Of a stretch of 38,606 nucleotides of DNA, positions 20,242-38,293 are shown piece by piece. The notes below the pieces were generated by a model. That model made no database searches. It had not been told where the DNA came from and saw only the letters and a list, made by a program, of their open reading frames with translations. The position numbers and the translations under genes are program-made. Location of the stretch: positions 1 to 38,606 of IMG/VR virus record IMGVR_UViG_3300031521_001957; one strand, written 5' to 3'. The stretch is from a virus. Position 1 is the stretch's first letter; each line of letters opens with the position of its first letter.

Positions 20242-20877
20242 ATGAAGAATTTTAAATTGTATTTGAGGGACATGCAAACTGGTAAGATAGGGGCAGATAA
20301 TCCCAACATAAATGCCCCAAATGTGCATCGCAAGGTTTTACAATATAAGGTAAAAGACTTGCGGCGCGGAATTTGGCAAGCCTGGCGTACCCGCTTCAGA
20401 AAAAATAAGCTTTATAACCCAAAAAGATATTTAAACCGTATATCAAATAAAATTAAGGAGGAAAAAATGGTATTTAGTTTTAAATCTTTTTTGAATGAAG
20501 TTGACAATTCTAGTAGAGATGTATTAGATACACACATGGGTAGGAAATTAATTTCCACAGTGCATTCAAAGGAACGTACAGAAGAAAGAGATGCAAACGA
20601 AGATATAGTAAAGCACATCTTCAAAAAAGGTGTTGAGCATTTGGCAAAAAATGGCGCGAAGTATGGAAAGAATGAACATTTTGTTGTAACTTCTAAAAAA
20701 CATAATAGGAGTGCAGCGTTTCATTATAGACCAGATAATAAAAGTACAAATGAGAATAAAAGCCACTGGATTCATACGTCTACTTTCCCAAAAGGAGAGC
20801 ATTATTGTAATAGAGACTGTAAGCCAATTAGGGTAGAAAGTATCGAAATAGATTATATTTTAATAGAAGTAGAATAG
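20242..20877 (+). CDS. late protein with possible capsid-targeting N-terminus and internal start
   Basis: 211 residues; no family recognised. The N-terminal part (MKNFKLYLRDMQ, then basic GIWQAWRTRFRKNK) is followed by an internal ATG at 20467 with a very strong RBS, which would give a 135-residue second product. That product begins MVFSFKSFLNE, resembling T4 capsid-targeting sequences, and L9-N10-E11 fits gp21 cleavage. The C-terminal domain is rich in His, Lys and Cys (HSKERTEERDANEDIVKHIF, HYCNRDCKPIRVES). Late promoter upstream at 20201. It may be a packaged, injected internal protein; this is inference. Confidence 0.65.
   Translation: MKNFKLYLRDMQTGKIGADNPNINAPNVHRKVLQYKVKDLRRGIWQAWRTRFRKNKLYNPKRYLNRISNKIKEEKMVFSFKSFLNEVDNSSRDVLDTHMGRKLISTVHSKERTEERDANEDIVKHIFKKGVEHLAKNGAKYGKNEHFVVTSKKHNRSAAFHYRPDNKSTNENKSHWIHTSTFPKGEHYCNRDCKPIRVESIEIDYILIEVE
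20455..20469 (+). promoter_or_regulatory. strong internal ribosome binding site
   Basis: AAGGAGG, 5 bases, ATG at 20467, in frame with the surrounding 211-residue gene. It is one of the strongest Shine-Dalgarno sequences in the window, so a shorter 135-residue protein is very likely made and may be the main product. Confidence 0.75.
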
Positions 20878-21761: not shown

Positions 21762-21979
21762 CAAATTTTATTGTTGATGTTTTAGAATATTGTGAAAGTA
21801 TTAATATTGAGGTTGATTATTTTAGTAATATTAGCAATGTGATTGATATATGCGGCGATATTACACTAGATCAAATTGGTGGTATATATGAATATTTTAA
21901 AGATGAGTACCCAGATATTGTAATACAATTTAGAAATGATATGCAATATATGTTTAGAATTTATAAGGATAAACTATGA
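21758..21979 (+). CDS. small acidic protein of unknown function
   Basis: 73 residues, acidic, alpha/beta, no recognised domain and no membrane segment, so not an obvious holin. GAAAGGTGG lies upstream of its ATG. It overlaps the endolysin gene by ATGA. Confidence 0.58.
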   Translation: MTNFIVDVLEYCESINIEVDYFSNISNVIDICGDITLDQIGGIYEYFKDEYPDIVIQFRNDMQYMFRIYKDKL

Positions 21980-22617
21980 AAAATTATTTAATTGAATTTC
22001 AAAAGGCAAATGGATTAATTGCCGATGGTGTTGTTGGAAAAACTACCGCAAAAGTTTTGATGGATAAATTGGGAATTGTTTCAGCGTTCAAATTCGCCCA
22101 TTTTATCGGACAATGTGAGCATGAAAGTAAGTTTACTGCTGCCAGAGAAAATATGAATTATTCGGCAGATGCGCTGAAGAAACTATTTGGAAAATATTTT
22201 AAAGGTGTTGATATAAAAGAATATGCGCGACAGCCAGAGAAAATTGCAAATAGAATTTATGCAAATCGTATGAATAATGGGGATGAAGAAAGTTGTGAAG
22301 GTTGGAAATATAGAGGTGTAGGTCCTCTGCAATTGACTGGCAAAAGTAATATACAAACATATCTTAAAAGTGTTGGATTACCTTTAGATACTGATCCAGA
22401 AGTTTTATTAGAACCAGAACACTACTTCCGTACTGCAAAATGGTTTTTTGATGCAAATAATGTATGGGAGTATTGTGTTGCTGGTAAACAAGCAATATAT
22501 GATGTTTCAAGAATAATAAATCTTGGTAATGTTAAATCGCAAGGTGTACCGTTAGGAATCGAAGAGCGAATATCATTGACAAATAAATATTTAACGGTAT
22601 TAGGGTACAAAAAATAA
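21976..22617 (+). CDS. endolysin: peptidoglycan-binding plus GH19 chitinase-like domain
   Basis: 213 residues. Residues 4-32 (LIEFQKANGLIADGVVGKTT) are a short peptidoglycan-binding (PGB_1) domain; residues ~38-210 are a glycoside hydrolase family 19 domain with the catalytic Glu in CEHES (E50), ENMNYSADALKKLF and YRGVGPLQLTG. In phages such proteins cleave peptidoglycan for lysis. There is no signal peptide, so it needs a holin or other exit. It is followed by a terminator. Expression looks sigma70-driven rather than from a late promoter. Confidence 0.9.
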   Translation: MKNYLIEFQKANGLIADGVVGKTTAKVLMDKLGIVSAFKFAHFIGQCEHESKFTAARENMNYSADALKKLFGKYFKGVDIKEYARQPEKIANRIYANRMNNGDEESCEGWKYRGVGPLQLTGKSNIQTYLKSVGLPLDTDPEVLLEPEHYFRTAKWFFDANNVWEYCVAGKQAIYDVSRIINLGNVKSQGVPLGIEERISLTNKYLTVLGYKK

Positions 22618-22689: not shown

Positions 22690-22717
22690 TTGACAAGTAT
22701 TAGAAATATGATATACT
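22690..22717 (+). promoter_or_regulatory. sigma70-type promoter for ppnN-like gene
   Basis: TTGACA, 16-bp spacer ending in TGA, TATACT; 29 bases before the start of the PpnN-like gene. Confidence 0.85.
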
Positions 22718-22746
22718 ATTACCTACAATAAAAATTAGGAAATATA

Positions 22747-24090
22747 ATGAAACAAACAAAAATAAAATTAACACCAGATAGTCACCTTGGAATCCTATCA
22801 AATAGGGAGATTGGCGATTTAATGAATAATAACTCACAATTAAAGCGGTTATTTAAAAATTGTGTGCTGGCTGTTATACATAGTGGTAGTAATACTAATA
22901 CTGGTGTAGAGTTATATGAACAATATCCTACATTTGATATTACAATTATCCAACGACCAAGAGGTATTCAAATTGAATTGATTAATCCACCACCTCATAT
23001 ATTTGTAGAGGGGGTGGTTATTAAAGGGGTTGCTGATCATATTTTTTCGGTTTTACGTGATATAGTTTATTCAAGCAGCGCGCATCCAATATCTTCAGAT
23101 GATATTACTAATGGGGTGTTTAATGTTTTAAGAAACGCAAATGTATTTGGAAATAACCGATTACAAAATATAATTGTGGCACAAGGTGGACATTCAATCA
23201 CGCATATTGAGTATGAATATAGTAAACTTGTAGGATATGAGTTAGGATTAAGAGAGTTTTCAGTTTGTACTGGAAGTGGATTAGGAGTTATGAAATCCTT
23301 CATGAAGGGTGCATGTGTTGCGCATAATAAACAAAGAATATATGATGGATTATATCTTGGGATTACCGAACCTGGCATCATTGCCACAGAATCTCCTAAT
23401 CATGTTGCGAATTCTTTGGTCATCATGCCTGATATCGAAAAGCGAATGGAATCTTTTATGAGGGTATCACATGGCATGGTTGTGTTTCCAGGAGGGGCTG
23501 GGACAGCAGAAGAGATACTTTATATTTTGGGTGTACTTCTTCATCCAGACAATAAAGGTATGCCATTCCCATTAATTTTTAGTGGGCCAAAAGAATATAA
23601 AGAATATTTTGAAAAGATCGATGAATTTATTGGAGCAACACTCGGAACAGAAGCACAAAATCTTTATGAAATTATTATAGGTGACGCTGAAAAAGTTGCC
23701 CATGATATGTATATTGGATTACAAGAAGTAAGGGATTATCGAACTAAAATGGGAGATGCTTATTATTTTAACTGGCTTTTGAAAATACACGAAGATTTTC
23801 AGAAACCTTTCGCCCCAACCCATGAAAATATGAGGTCTTTGAATCTTTCAAAAGATCAAGATATTCATTCGTTGGCGGCAAATTTGAGAAGAGCATTTTC
23901 TGGCATTGTATCGGGAAATGTAAAAGAATGTGGCGTGAAAGCCATTGAAGAATTTGGGTGTTTTGAAATTGAAGGAGATGATGAAATTATGATTATGATG
24001 GATGAACTTTTACAATCGTTTGTAACACAAGGTCGCATGAAACTTAGGGGCAAAGTATATACCCCATGTTATAAGGTGGTGAAAAGATGA
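22747..24090 (+). CDS. ppnN: PpnN/YgdH-like nucleotide 5'-monophosphate nucleosidase (LOG family)
   Basis: 447 residues, co-linear from end to end with E. coli PpnN (454 residues). Shared landmarks: LFKNCVLAVIHSGS (35-48), RGIQIELINPP (72-82), QGGHS (146-150), CTGSGLGVMKS (174-184), IMPDIEKRMESF (226-237), the LOG motif FPGGAGTAEE (247-256), GDAYYFNW, ENMRSLNL and LRRAFSGIVSGNVKE. PpnN splits nucleotide monophosphates into base and ribose-5-phosphate and in E. coli is activated by (p)ppGpp. All three parts (N-terminal regulatory, LOG catalytic, C-terminal) are present, so it is probably active. Likely early expressed; a role in nucleotide salvage or in reacting to host stringent response is inference. 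Confidence 0.92.
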   Translation: MKQTKIKLTPDSHLGILSNREIGDLMNNNSQLKRLFKNCVLAVIHSGSNTNTGVELYEQYPTFDITIIQRPRGIQIELINPPPHIFVEGVVIKGVADHIFSVLRDIVYSSSAHPISSDDITNGVFNVLRNANVFGNNRLQNIIVAQGGHSITHIEYEYSKLVGYELGLREFSVCTGSGLGVMKSFMKGACVAHNKQRIYDGLYLGITEPGIIATESPNHVANSLVIMPDIEKRMESFMRVSHGMVVFPGGAGTAEEILYILGVLLHPDNKGMPFPLIFSGPKEYKEYFEKIDEFIGATLGTEAQNLYEIIIGDAEKVAHDMYIGLQEVRDYRTKMGDAYYFNWLLKIHEDFQKPFAPTHENMRSLNLSKDQDIHSLAANLRRAFSGIVSGNVKECGVKAIEEFGCFEIEGDDEIMIMMDELLQSFVTQGRMKLRGKVYTPCYKVVKR

Positions 24091-24455
24091 TTTGCATAAA
24101 AACAATACGAGCATCGATTTTGACGCTCTTATTGTTACACCCTTTAGCAGCCTATGAATCTACTAAAGGAAAGCTTATTAAGAATGGTATTGCATCTTGG
24201 TATGGAGATGAATCTGGCAAATATACCGCCAATGGAGAACGATTTAATCCAAGAGCATTTACTGCCGCATGTTGGTTTCTACCTTTCAATACATTGGTTA
24301 AAGTTACAAATTTAAGAACAAAGAAAAGTGTTGTTGTACGGATAAACGATAGAGGTCCAGCAAAAAGACTTCACAGGCTAATTGATTTATCACAAGCAGC
24401 AGCAAGAAGAATTGGTATAAAGAGTATTGATAAAGTAAAATTAGAAATAGTTTGA
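24087..24455 (+). CDS. RlpA-like double-psi beta-barrel protein with signal peptide
   Basis: 122 residues. An N-terminal signal peptide (residues 1-22, TIRASILTLLLLHPLAAYES) is followed by the RlpA-like DPBB domain: GIASWYG (34-40), TANGERFNP (47-55), LPFNTLVKVTNL, VVRINDRGP (83-91), RLIDLSQAAA (97-106). There is no SPOR domain. Bacterial RlpA proteins are lytic transglycosylases or septal factors acting on peptidoglycan in the periplasm. The gene overlaps the ppnN-like gene by ATGA, so they are made together. A role in envelope weakening or lysis is inferred. Confidence 0.85.
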   Translation: MICIKTIRASILTLLLLHPLAAYESTKGKLIKNGIASWYGDESGKYTANGERFNPRAFTAACWFLPFNTLVKVTNLRTKKSVVVRINDRGPAKRLHRLIDLSQAAARRIGIKSIDKVKLEIV

Positions 24456-24728: not shown

Positions 24729-25403
24729 ATGAAATTATCGAAAAATACGTTAGACATTTTGCGCAACTTCGCTATATTAAATGGCAATATATTTATTCCT
24801 GCTGGGAATGTTATAAAAACTATGAGCGTGATAGGGAATGCCCTTGCATCGGTAACAGTTGAAGAAACATTTGATAAAGATGTGAGTATTTATGATTTAT
24901 CAGAACTACTTTCGGTGTTAAATATTGCTCCAGATGGTGATATTACTCTTCATGAAAATCGTTTGGATGTAAAATGGGGGGCTAGTCGTGTAAAGTATGC
25001 TTACGCGGATCAGATACTACTTCGGGATGCAATAGCCGCGAGTAAGAAGAATGTTAATTTTCCCGAAGTTGATGTAGAGTTTAACTTAACTGGAGAAACT
25101 TTAGTATCTTTACATAAAGCCTCATCAATACTAAAGGCACCTTATGTTGGTATTTTTGCTAATGGTGATATAGTTAGTCTTAAAGTGTTTGATAAGGCAC
25201 TTGTTAATGCGAATGTGTTTGTAGTTGATACCGATGCCACTAGTACTGAATATTTTACAGTGGTTCTTGATATTGCAAATCTTAAATTACTATCTGGCGA
25301 TTATACAGTTAGTTTAAGTAGAAGAAATATTATTCGTTTTGCACATATTGGTGATGATTTAGTTTATTATATTACTGCCGACACAGCCAGTGTGTGGAAA
25401 TAA
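24729..25403 (+). CDS. 45: DNA polymerase sliding clamp gp45
   Basis: 224 residues (T4 gp45: 228) with the two-domain clamp fold: MKLSKNTLDILRNFAILNGN at the start, DVSIYDLSELLSVLN (51-65), KYAYAD, and the C-terminal strands ending in DTASVWK. It forms the trimeric ring that tethers gp43 and, in T4, also activates late transcription with gp33 and gp55. AGAGGAA precedes the ATG. It is followed by a small gene and gp44 in one operon. Confidence 0.92.
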   Translation: MKLSKNTLDILRNFAILNGNIFIPAGNVIKTMSVIGNALASVTVEETFDKDVSIYDLSELLSVLNIAPDGDITLHENRLDVKWGASRVKYAYADQILLRDAIAASKKNVNFPEVDVEFNLTGETLVSLHKASSILKAPYVGIFANGDIVSLKVFDKALVNANVFVVDTDATSTEYFTVVLDIANLKLLSGDYTVSLSRRNIIRFAHIGDDLVYYITADTASVWK

Positions 25404-35769: not shown

Positions 35770-36420
35770 ATGAATGTAAGTAAATTTATTGTTATCCATG
35801 TACCAATAAATTTTATAAAAAGTTTTGTAGAACAATTTCATTATTCTCATAGTATAAATGGGGTAATATGTGATCATTGTTTTGCATTATTTGATGAAGA
35901 TCAAAATTTAATTGGTGCTGCAATATTTGGTAAAATGGCAATGGCAAATCAATGGAAAAGATTTGGAGATAAAGTAGAAGATGTAATTGAACTTAGGCGA
36001 TTATGCTGTATAGATGACACTCCAAAAAATACTGAATCATTTTTCATAGGAAAGTGTTTAAAATGGCTAACAGAATACACCAAATTTAAGGTTGTAGCAT
36101 CTTATTCAGATTTAGAATATGGACATGAAGGTACTATCTATAAAGCCTCTAATTTCGAATGTTTGGGTATTCAAGCTGGAGCAAGAGTAATTTTATATAA
36201 TGGTAAACGGTATCATGATAAAGCCATACGCACAAAGTATAATGGTAAACTTAAACCTTTTGCAGAAAATTTAATAAAAGCTTTAGAAAGTGGTGAAGCA
36301 GTCTATGTTGAAACAAAAGGAAAGGTTGCTTATCAATATATTTTAAAAAGAAAGAAAACAAAAGCAGATTATGAAAATGTGGAAGTTGTTGATAATTCCT
36401 TGTCAAATTTTTTCATATAA
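35770..36420 (+). CDS. Mom-like / GNAT-fold putative DNA modification protein
   Basis: 216 residues. FHYSH (23-27), LIGAAIFGK (47-55), ELRRLCCIDDTPKNTESFFIG (quoted in parts: ELRRL 74-78, KNTESFF 86-92), SYSD (111-114) and GHEGTIYKASNF (118-129) follow the pattern of Mom-like proteins, the phage Mu family that adds a carbamoylmethyl group to adenine and has an acetyltransferase (GNAT) fold. It starts three bases after the clpP stop, so the two are co-expressed. If active it would protect phage DNA against host restriction; substrate and chemistry are inferred from the family. Confidence 0.68.
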   Translation: MNVSKFIVIHVPINFIKSFVEQFHYSHSINGVICDHCFALFDEDQNLIGAAIFGKMAMANQWKRFGDKVEDVIELRRLCCIDDTPKNTESFFIGKCLKWLTEYTKFKVVASYSDLEYGHEGTIYKASNFECLGIQAGARVILYNGKRYHDKAIRTKYNGKLKPFAENLIKALESGEAVYVETKGKVAYQYILKRKKTKADYENVEVVDNSLSNFFI

Positions 36421-36454: not shown

Positions 36455-38293
36455 ATGAGAAAATTAATAACTTTCACTGCACCCACCCCAATAGCATTTA
36501 CTGCGGATACTATATCCCCTTCAACTGTACGGTTGAATTGGAGTTTAGCCGTTGATAGTAGACCAGTTGATTACTATAAAATATATAGAAATGGAACTTT
36601 AATTGGCACGTCTTTAACAACAACATATGATGATACTACAGCTACAGCAACACATAATTATACTTATGGTGTATCTTCAGTAATTAATTATATTAATGAA
36701 TCCACACAAGTTACAGTAGTAGATAATTCAGTTGTACCTCTAATTCCAACCAATCTTACTGCAACAGTGAATTCGGGTACACAAATAACCCTAACATGGT
36801 CAGCAACAACAGTTTCTGGTGGTACAATTTCTGCTTATGTATTACGTAGGGATGGAGTTATAGTTAATGGCTCTGCGAATGCACTATCATATATTAATAC
36901 TGGATTAACCCAAAATACAACCTACTCATATACAATATCAGCAATTGATAATATTGGTAATGAAAGTGAGCAATCTCTGGCAATAACAGCAAAAACATTT
37001 GATACTGCTGCTCCATCAGTCCCAACCGGATTAACGGCAACTGCTGTGTCACCGACACAAATTAATTTATCATGGAATCCGTCAAATGATAATGTTGGCG
37101 TTACTGGCTATAAATTATATAGAGGGGCAACATTAATAAATGGTTCTAGTAGTGCAACTTCATACAGTAATACAGGGCTGACCGCATCCACCCTATATTC
37201 ATATACGGTATCTGCATTTGATGCACGTAATAATACAAGCGCAGCATCTGCTGCTGCATCAGCTACAACTCCTGGTGTGATACCACCTCCAGACTCAGCA
37301 ATACAAGGGTTTGCAGCTGTGGCTGGAGTGACTGGGGGTGGTACTGGTGGTACTGTGTATACTGTAACAAGCAACCTCAGCAGCGGCACAGGCTCACTTT
37401 ATGATTATCTTAACCGAGCAGGGGCGCGAACAATTAAATTTACCCAAGGGTTAACCGCAATAATATCAATGCCTCCTGCTAGTGTGTCATCACCATTCAT
37501 GTACTTGCAAAACGGAAATGTTACGCTTGACGGTGATAAAGCAAATATAACCATAACTGGCGCGTCAATCAATACAAATGGTAAAACTAACATTATAATT
37601 AAAAATATGACGTTTACCGATAATCTTGCAAACGGGAGTGCGGTACAAATATCCTACGGTTCTTATAATGTTTGGGTAGACCACTGCACCTTTAGTGGGC
37701 AGTCTTCAGGTAGTAAGTCGGGACAACCGATTGCCGTATGGAATCAATCTTCAACGGGACTTGATGGTACATCATCAGAGTTGACTGGAATAACGCTAAG
37801 TTGGAATCATTTTAAAGCACCAAATAGCCGAGCAGTATTGGCTGGTGGTGAAACCCATAATACAGGTAACACGGTGGTATTGCCTATCCGTATCAGTATG
37901 CACCACAACTATTATGATAATTGCACAACACGCAACCCAAGAGCACATAGTAAAGGAGTAACTATACACGAATGGAATAGTTATGCTACAGCATCTTGGA
38001 GCGAAGCACCTGTTACAGTTACCCAAGGCGCAGCTTATTACGGACAAGGAAATATTTATCAACCATTAGGGACAGGCACCAAAACAATAACAAATAACAG
38101 CGATTTTTATTTTCCGACAGATGGCCCAATTGGAATAAAATCAGAAGGTCATTATTTATTAAATAGCGCAACTATTAATCAATATGGTACATTTCCGATG
38201 GACAGAATTACCTACACGGCAACAGTTGAAACGGCTAATGATGCTTTAAAAGCACGAATAATAGCATATGCTGGAGCTAACAAAGGAGTGTAG
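36455..38293 (+). CDS. tailspike/adhesin: three FN3 domains plus PL1-type pectate lyase
   Basis: 612 residues. Three fibronectin type III domains (about 9-90, 97-181, 187-272), a short proline linker (PGVIPPPD), then a right-handed beta-helix of the polysaccharide lyase 1 (PelC/Amb allergen) type from about 283 to the end. PL1 landmarks: YNVWVDHCTFS (404-414, calcium-site Asp), SMHHNYYDNC (481-490) and TRNPRAHSKG (492-501), with the catalytic Arg expected in RNPR. It likely cuts acidic polysaccharide (pectate-like or capsule) on the host surface. The third FN3 is almost the same as that of the adhesin at the window start. Late promoter upstream; no signal peptide. Confidence 0.85.
   Translation: MRKLITFTAPTPIAFTADTISPSTVRLNWSLAVDSRPVDYYKIYRNGTLIGTSLTTTYDDTTATATHNYTYGVSSVINYINESTQVTVVDNSVVPLIPTNLTATVNSGTQITLTWSATTVSGGTISAYVLRRDGVIVNGSANALSYINTGLTQNTTYSYTISAIDNIGNESEQSLAITAKTFDTAAPSVPTGLTATAVSPTQINLSWNPSNDNVGVTGYKLYRGATLINGSSSATSYSNTGLTASTLYSYTVSAFDARNNTSAASAAASATTPGVIPPPDSAIQGFAAVAGVTGGGTGGTVYTVTSNLSSGTGSLYDYLNRAGARTIKFTQGLTAIISMPPASVSSPFMYLQNGNVTLDGDKANITITGASINTNGKTNIIIKNMTFTDNLANGSAVQISYGSYNVWVDHCTFSGQSSGSKSGQPIAVWNQSSTGLDGTSSELTGITLSWNHFKAPNSRAVLAGGETHNTGNTVVLPIRISMHHNYYDNCTTRNPRAHSKGVTIHEWNSYATASWSEAPVTVTQGAAYYGQGNIYQPLGTGTKTITNNSDFYFPTDGPIGIKSEGHYLLNSATINQYGTFPMDRITYTATVETANDALKARIIAYAGANKGV
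37196..37239 (+). repeat. 44-bp exact repeat inside FN3 domain (copy 2)
   Basis: Identical to 191-234; part of a longer imperfect repeat that covers the whole third FN3 domain. Confidence 0.9.

Follow-up and report, generated by a model that had tools for sequence, protein, structure and literature searches.

Both known members of a T4-like phage lineage carry a complete bacterial ppnN gene, stably acquired and placed between an endolysin gene and gp45. One member is represented by the window, the whole 38,606-nucleotide stretch of DNA that we analysed (IMG/VR virus record IMGVR_UViG_3300031521_001957, a linear fragment), and the other by a second IMG/VR phage contig, L036 (IMGVR_UViG_3300047200_000161). 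PpnN enzymes split nucleoside monophosphates (NMPs) into the free base and ribose 5-phosphate, with a preference for GMP in E. coli, and are stimulated by (p)ppGpp (PMC6717881, PMC10311079).

The window gene (positions 22747-24090, + strand) encodes 447 amino acids from an ATG start, and was assigned using an equivalog profile, Pfam, PDB homologues and an alignment with E. coli PpnN. The NCBIfam equivalog NF038390 matched it with 637 bits (1.6e-191; curated cut-off 450 bits) over profile positions 3-450 of 450. Three Pfam families scored above their cut-offs and delimit the N-terminal gating domain PAG1 (PF14793, DUF4478; residues 7-111, 22765-23079), the Rossmann nucleosidase core, which is LOG-like (PF03641, Lysine_decarbox; residues 182-320, 23290-23706), and the C-terminal gating domain PAG2 (PF11892, PpnN_C, formerly DUF3412; residues 326-445, 23722-24081), all on the + strand; by the criterion of the authors of the PpnN work, this three-domain architecture identifies a ppnN orthologue (PMC6717881). 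The protein aligns from end to end with the solved PpnN structures 3bq9, 2pmb, 6gfl and 9hs1 (E-values around 1e-141 or lower), and shares 50% identity over the full length with E. coli PpnN, 52% with that of Aliikangiella marina and 60% with the closest cellular PpnN among the genomes searched. The catalytic motif PGGAGTAEE (23488-23514, + strand; residues 248-256, equivalent to E. coli 256-264) is retained. A preliminary description of this DNA had claimed a whole-length alignment with E. coli PpnN, with catalytic motif and both terminal parts present, and these results bear it out. An identity as a LOG cytokinin nucleosidase was ruled out by the TIGR00730 score (33.7 bits, under the cut-off of 96.35), the length of 447 residues and the presence of both PAG domains, and a PHROG search with the phage protein returned no family match. 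An AlphaFold model built from only three sequences (window, L036 and Aliikangiella) was poor (pLDDT 57.7), and a fold search was needless because of the 50% full-length identity to solved structures. Judged by its sequence, then, the reading frame is a true full-length PpnN orthologue; it adds a member to a known enzyme family and is no new kind of system.

The surrounding genes are those of a T4-like phage. The window carries a head module with a gp21-like protease, scaffold and gp23, and replication genes for gp45, gp44, gp43 and gp41, together with UvsX and a dUTPase; gp46/47-like genes were recognised by their position, by the homology of a 564-residue protein to SbcC/Rad50-type ATPases and by their match to L036. 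Cyanophage gp43 shares no more than 41% identity with the polymerase, and the DNA of positions 14000-38600 matched no known phage record. Upstream of ppnN lies the endolysin gene (21976-22617, + strand; phrog_181; 61% to L036) and downstream the gene for a gp45-like sliding clamp (24729-25403, + strand; phrog_223, PF09116; 57% to L036), both of them conserved neighbours. Between ppnN and the clamp gene, an RlpA-like (DPBB) gene (24087-24455, + strand) overlaps the ppnN stop codon by ATGA and is probably co-transcribed with ppnN; it is not conserved in L036. Its product has a signal-like N-terminus, and 65 phage records, many from cyanophages, contain a similar protein. Further from ppnN, the window encodes a Mom-like DNA modification protein (35770-36420; PF25680, phrog_1384), here in a T4-like phage, and, next to the replication genes, a 612-residue protein that combines fn3 domains with a pectate-lyase-like match (36455-38293). 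A lineage-specific protein of 211 residues (20242-20877) has no family match and was found elsewhere only in L036 (54%).

In L036 the gene order gp47, gp46, lineage-specific gene (210 residues), endolysin, ppnN, gp45, gp44 is the same as in the window. The two PpnN proteins are 59% identical, within the 55-62% of the core proteins tested. The gene on the 3' side of ppnN differs, being RlpA-like in the window and, judged from sequence, of HNH type in L036, which makes ppnN itself the conserved unit. Codon-position identities between the two ppnN genes are 65/78/44%, with pN 0.28 and pS 0.75 (dS is saturated), and ppnN is kept under purifying selection in the phage lineage; its GC3 of 24% is like that of other phage genes. 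Thus ppnN has the marks of an auxiliary metabolic gene, lying inside a phage genome between endolysin and gp45 in two contigs, with a cellular homologue at 60% identity and under purifying selection. In a maximum-likelihood tree the two phage proteins formed one clade (bootstrap 99, SH-aLRT 98) apart from all cellular sequences sampled. Their terminal branches, 1.61 and 1.18, are long beside the median of 0.43, and the tree leaves this clade without a firm place among bacterial PpnNs. Because PpnN is about as diverged as the core proteins, sits at the same location and forms one clade, the simplest history is apparently one old acquisition followed by descent in the phage lineage, a reading that the long branches leave less than certain; that a second, distant phage shares the gene indicates that the lineage keeps it. 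Separately, reading frames near both ends of L036 (24-548 and 17580-18158) share AAWMPTDPP, perhaps an adapter or other artificial sequence.

The gene is rare among phages. When either phage PpnN was used in a tblastn search of 50,697 GenBank phage records, there were two matches, both INPHARED entries and both Salmonella chromosomal sequence: OR851403.1, labelled "Salmonella phage" in GenBank, is a 1.9-kb unverified contig that carries ppnN and is itself 94% identical to the Salmonella chromosome, and AGRM01000002 is a contig of a Salmonella genome and not a phage. Scans of IMG/VR, which relied on short conserved peptides being matched exactly and so can miss variants, yielded L036 as the one other phage contig with ppnN. 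Three further candidates (L037, L038 and L039) were rejected as phage ppnN genes: the 3' end of ppnN lies at the contig edge in GC-rich sequence, with a tRNA-like stretch and then an integrase-like gene after it (both calls judged from sequence, with no family search), features that mark them as host flanks of prophages. They perhaps point to a recurrent integration site beside ppnN. Among 80 T4-like loci fetched from IMG/VR by gp44, 28 of which span the interval from gp46 to gp45 where ppnN would be expected, none carried the gene, and we found no literature on phage-encoded PpnN, judging by title and abstract. The preliminary description had placed such an enzyme outside the usual T4-like gene set, and these searches agree: a full-length PpnN was found in no genuine phage of the GenBank set and is not common among the phage's relatives.

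To judge how far the phage enzymes have drifted, we took 76 bacterial PpnNs as reference and selected the 156 columns with at least 93% conservation among them. Each phage protein differs at 17 of these positions, compared with a bacterial median of 1 and a maximum of 13. All departures are confined to PAG1 and the core: neither phage has changed any of the 39 near-invariant PAG2 columns, whereas 17 of the other 117 are altered (Fisher p = 0.007 in either phage; the two tests are not independent, and stricter cut-offs leave numbers too small to tell). Several changes fall at positions invariant in all 76 bacteria, namely (in E. coli numbering) C153A and W154Q in the window protein, D237T and K240R in L036, and C185S, P193F/T and, in PAG1, D49N/S in both phages; A222T, at a position invariant or nearly so in the 76 homologues, is likewise shared by both. 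Arg70, present in 95% of bacteria, is kept in the window and is Phe in L036, which for its part keeps PGGAGT and both glutamates of the motif. By this measure the drift of the core and PAG1 exceeds that in every one of the 76 bacterial homologues, and these changes may have altered substrate range or regulation. The (p)ppGpp pocket was compared at one named contact, the guanine-stacking Tyr347 of E. coli PpnN (given as Tyr346 in PMC7674647), whose equivalent Tyr339, within PAG2, is kept in the window protein. In E. coli PpnN the alarmone site lies between subunits and is built by both PAG domains (PMC6717881), so that, with PAG1 drifted, gating by (p)ppGpp is not assured.

Upstream of ppnN we identified a near-consensus sigma-70-type promoter, TTGACA-16-TATACT (22690-22717, + strand), whose end lies 29 bases from the start codon, and, 6 bases ahead of the ATG, an AGGA that resembles a ribosome-binding site (22737-22740, + strand). 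At the corresponding place L036 has TTGACT-16-TATAAT. If sites with 11 or more of the 12 consensus bases are counted, the + strand of the window holds 14 where 1.65 are expected (from dinucleotide shuffles, which gave 5 at most). All 14 fall in the replication region, from 13.9 to 35.2 kb, most of them before early or replication genes, and none was found in the gp21-gp23 head-gene region; counting both strands, 18 near-consensus promoters (14 on + and 4 on -) lie between 10233 and 35133. The strong sigma70-type control and the place near replication genes noted earlier were thus confirmed, with gp45 downstream, although the promoter belongs to a family that precedes early and replication genes and is not special to ppnN. 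Thus ppnN shares the control of the presumed early genes, which are taken to be early by analogy with T4.

The best-supported reading, which we consider reasonably probable, is that the phage protein is an active, early-made NMP nucleosidase that drains NMPs and is probably stimulated by (p)ppGpp. Host RNA polymerase would make phage PpnN early in infection; all steps that follow expression we infer. The enzyme would hydrolyse nucleoside 5'-monophosphates to free base and ribose 5-phosphate, and the most likely benefit would be the draining of NMPs left behind once host transcription has ceased and the RNA of the host is being turned over. Ribose 5-phosphate could then pass through PRPP into new nucleotide synthesis, while GMP, the source of GTP and (p)ppGpp, would be lowered. 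Because the C-terminal gate is kept, (p)ppGpp probably still stimulates the phage enzyme, whose activity would be strongest in a starving host. Against this account stand the 17 near-invariant departures in each phage, some at positions invariant in bacteria, and the risk that a free nucleosidase costs the phage nucleotides it needs. We propose more tentatively that PpnN may act as an early takeover enzyme that reads the stringent state of the host and, on starvation, turns NMPs into ribose 5-phosphate and bases, tying the phage's nucleotide supply to the alarmone.

Other explanations have to be weighed against an early NMP nucleosidase. The fold and tetramer might have been kept while the substrate or the regulation shifted, so that the enzyme would act on another nucleotide (a deoxy- or modified NMP, or one related to defence), maybe without a response to (p)ppGpp. 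The core and PAG1 changes found in both phages (C185S, P193F/T, D49N/S and A222T) and the long end branches would fit such a shift, as would the Mom-like DNA modification protein and dUTPase that the phage also encodes; yet the catalytic motif and PAG2 are intact, the NF038390 score is far above its cut-off, and any phage gene is expected to evolve fast, and we regard this explanation as unlikely, if still deserving of some weight.

Less plausible still is a role in counter-defence, in which the removal of NMPs or the lowering of GTP would blunt nucleotide alarm or defence signals of the host, including (p)ppGpp-driven growth arrest. An early-type promoter and a (p)ppGpp-linked enzyme family count indirectly in its favour, but cleavage of (p)ppGpp or of cyclic oligonucleotides by PpnN is not reported in the PpnN literature cited here, (p)ppGpp activates PpnN (PMC6717881), and, without a PADLOC search, no genes for defence or counter-defence could be recognised next to ppnN, the Mom-like gene being further away. 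The earlier suggestion that the enzyme depletes nucleotide signals used in host defence found no support. That ppnN was found in only two phage contigs of millions, and that the donor family is bacterial, could also speak for a chance pick-up of host DNA or an assembly join with no role in the phage. This we think very improbable: the second contig, in which gene order and flanks are the same and the divergence is equal, rules out host contamination or a chimera, and the phage-like GC3, intact reading frames, purifying selection and single phage clade, separate from all cellular PpnNs sampled, all argue against it.

Of the known systems close to it, the phage protein can be compared first with E. 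coli PpnN (YgdH; PDB 6gfl/6gfm and 9hs1-9hs3), with which it shares the three domains, PGGxGTxxE, Tyr347, a conserved PAG2 and 50% identity. It differs in being phage-encoded under an early-type promoter, in a shorter loop after PAG1 and, across the phage PpnNs, in changes at the bacterially invariant positions C153, W154, C185, P193 and D49; this diverged clade shows which bacterially invariant positions of PpnN can change with the C-terminal gate kept. The closest sequences over the whole length are 3bq9 and gammaproteobacterial PpnNs (best 60%, G286/G206), which are cellular genes, whereas the phage pair forms a separate long-branch clade. LOG (lonely guy) cytokinin nucleosidases of the TIGR00730 family have the Rossmann core and PGGxGTxxE in common with phage PpnN and, unlike it, are without PAG domains. 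Phages are believed to interfere with the stringent response, and MazG is the usual candidate. Cyanophage MazG, the product of an auxiliary gene once linked to (p)ppGpp, resembles phage PpnN in being a nucleotide-hydrolysing enzyme of bacterial origin that a phage carries, and in its proposed action on that response; it is, however, a pyrophosphohydrolase and not a nucleosidase, and one report describes it as unable to hydrolyse magic spot nucleotides (PMC6850273). The interest of phage PpnN lies in its direct link to (p)ppGpp and its stable retention by a phage lineage: with a bacterial counterpart that (p)ppGpp activates directly, the phage enzyme offers a defined test of whether phages sense the host alarmone.
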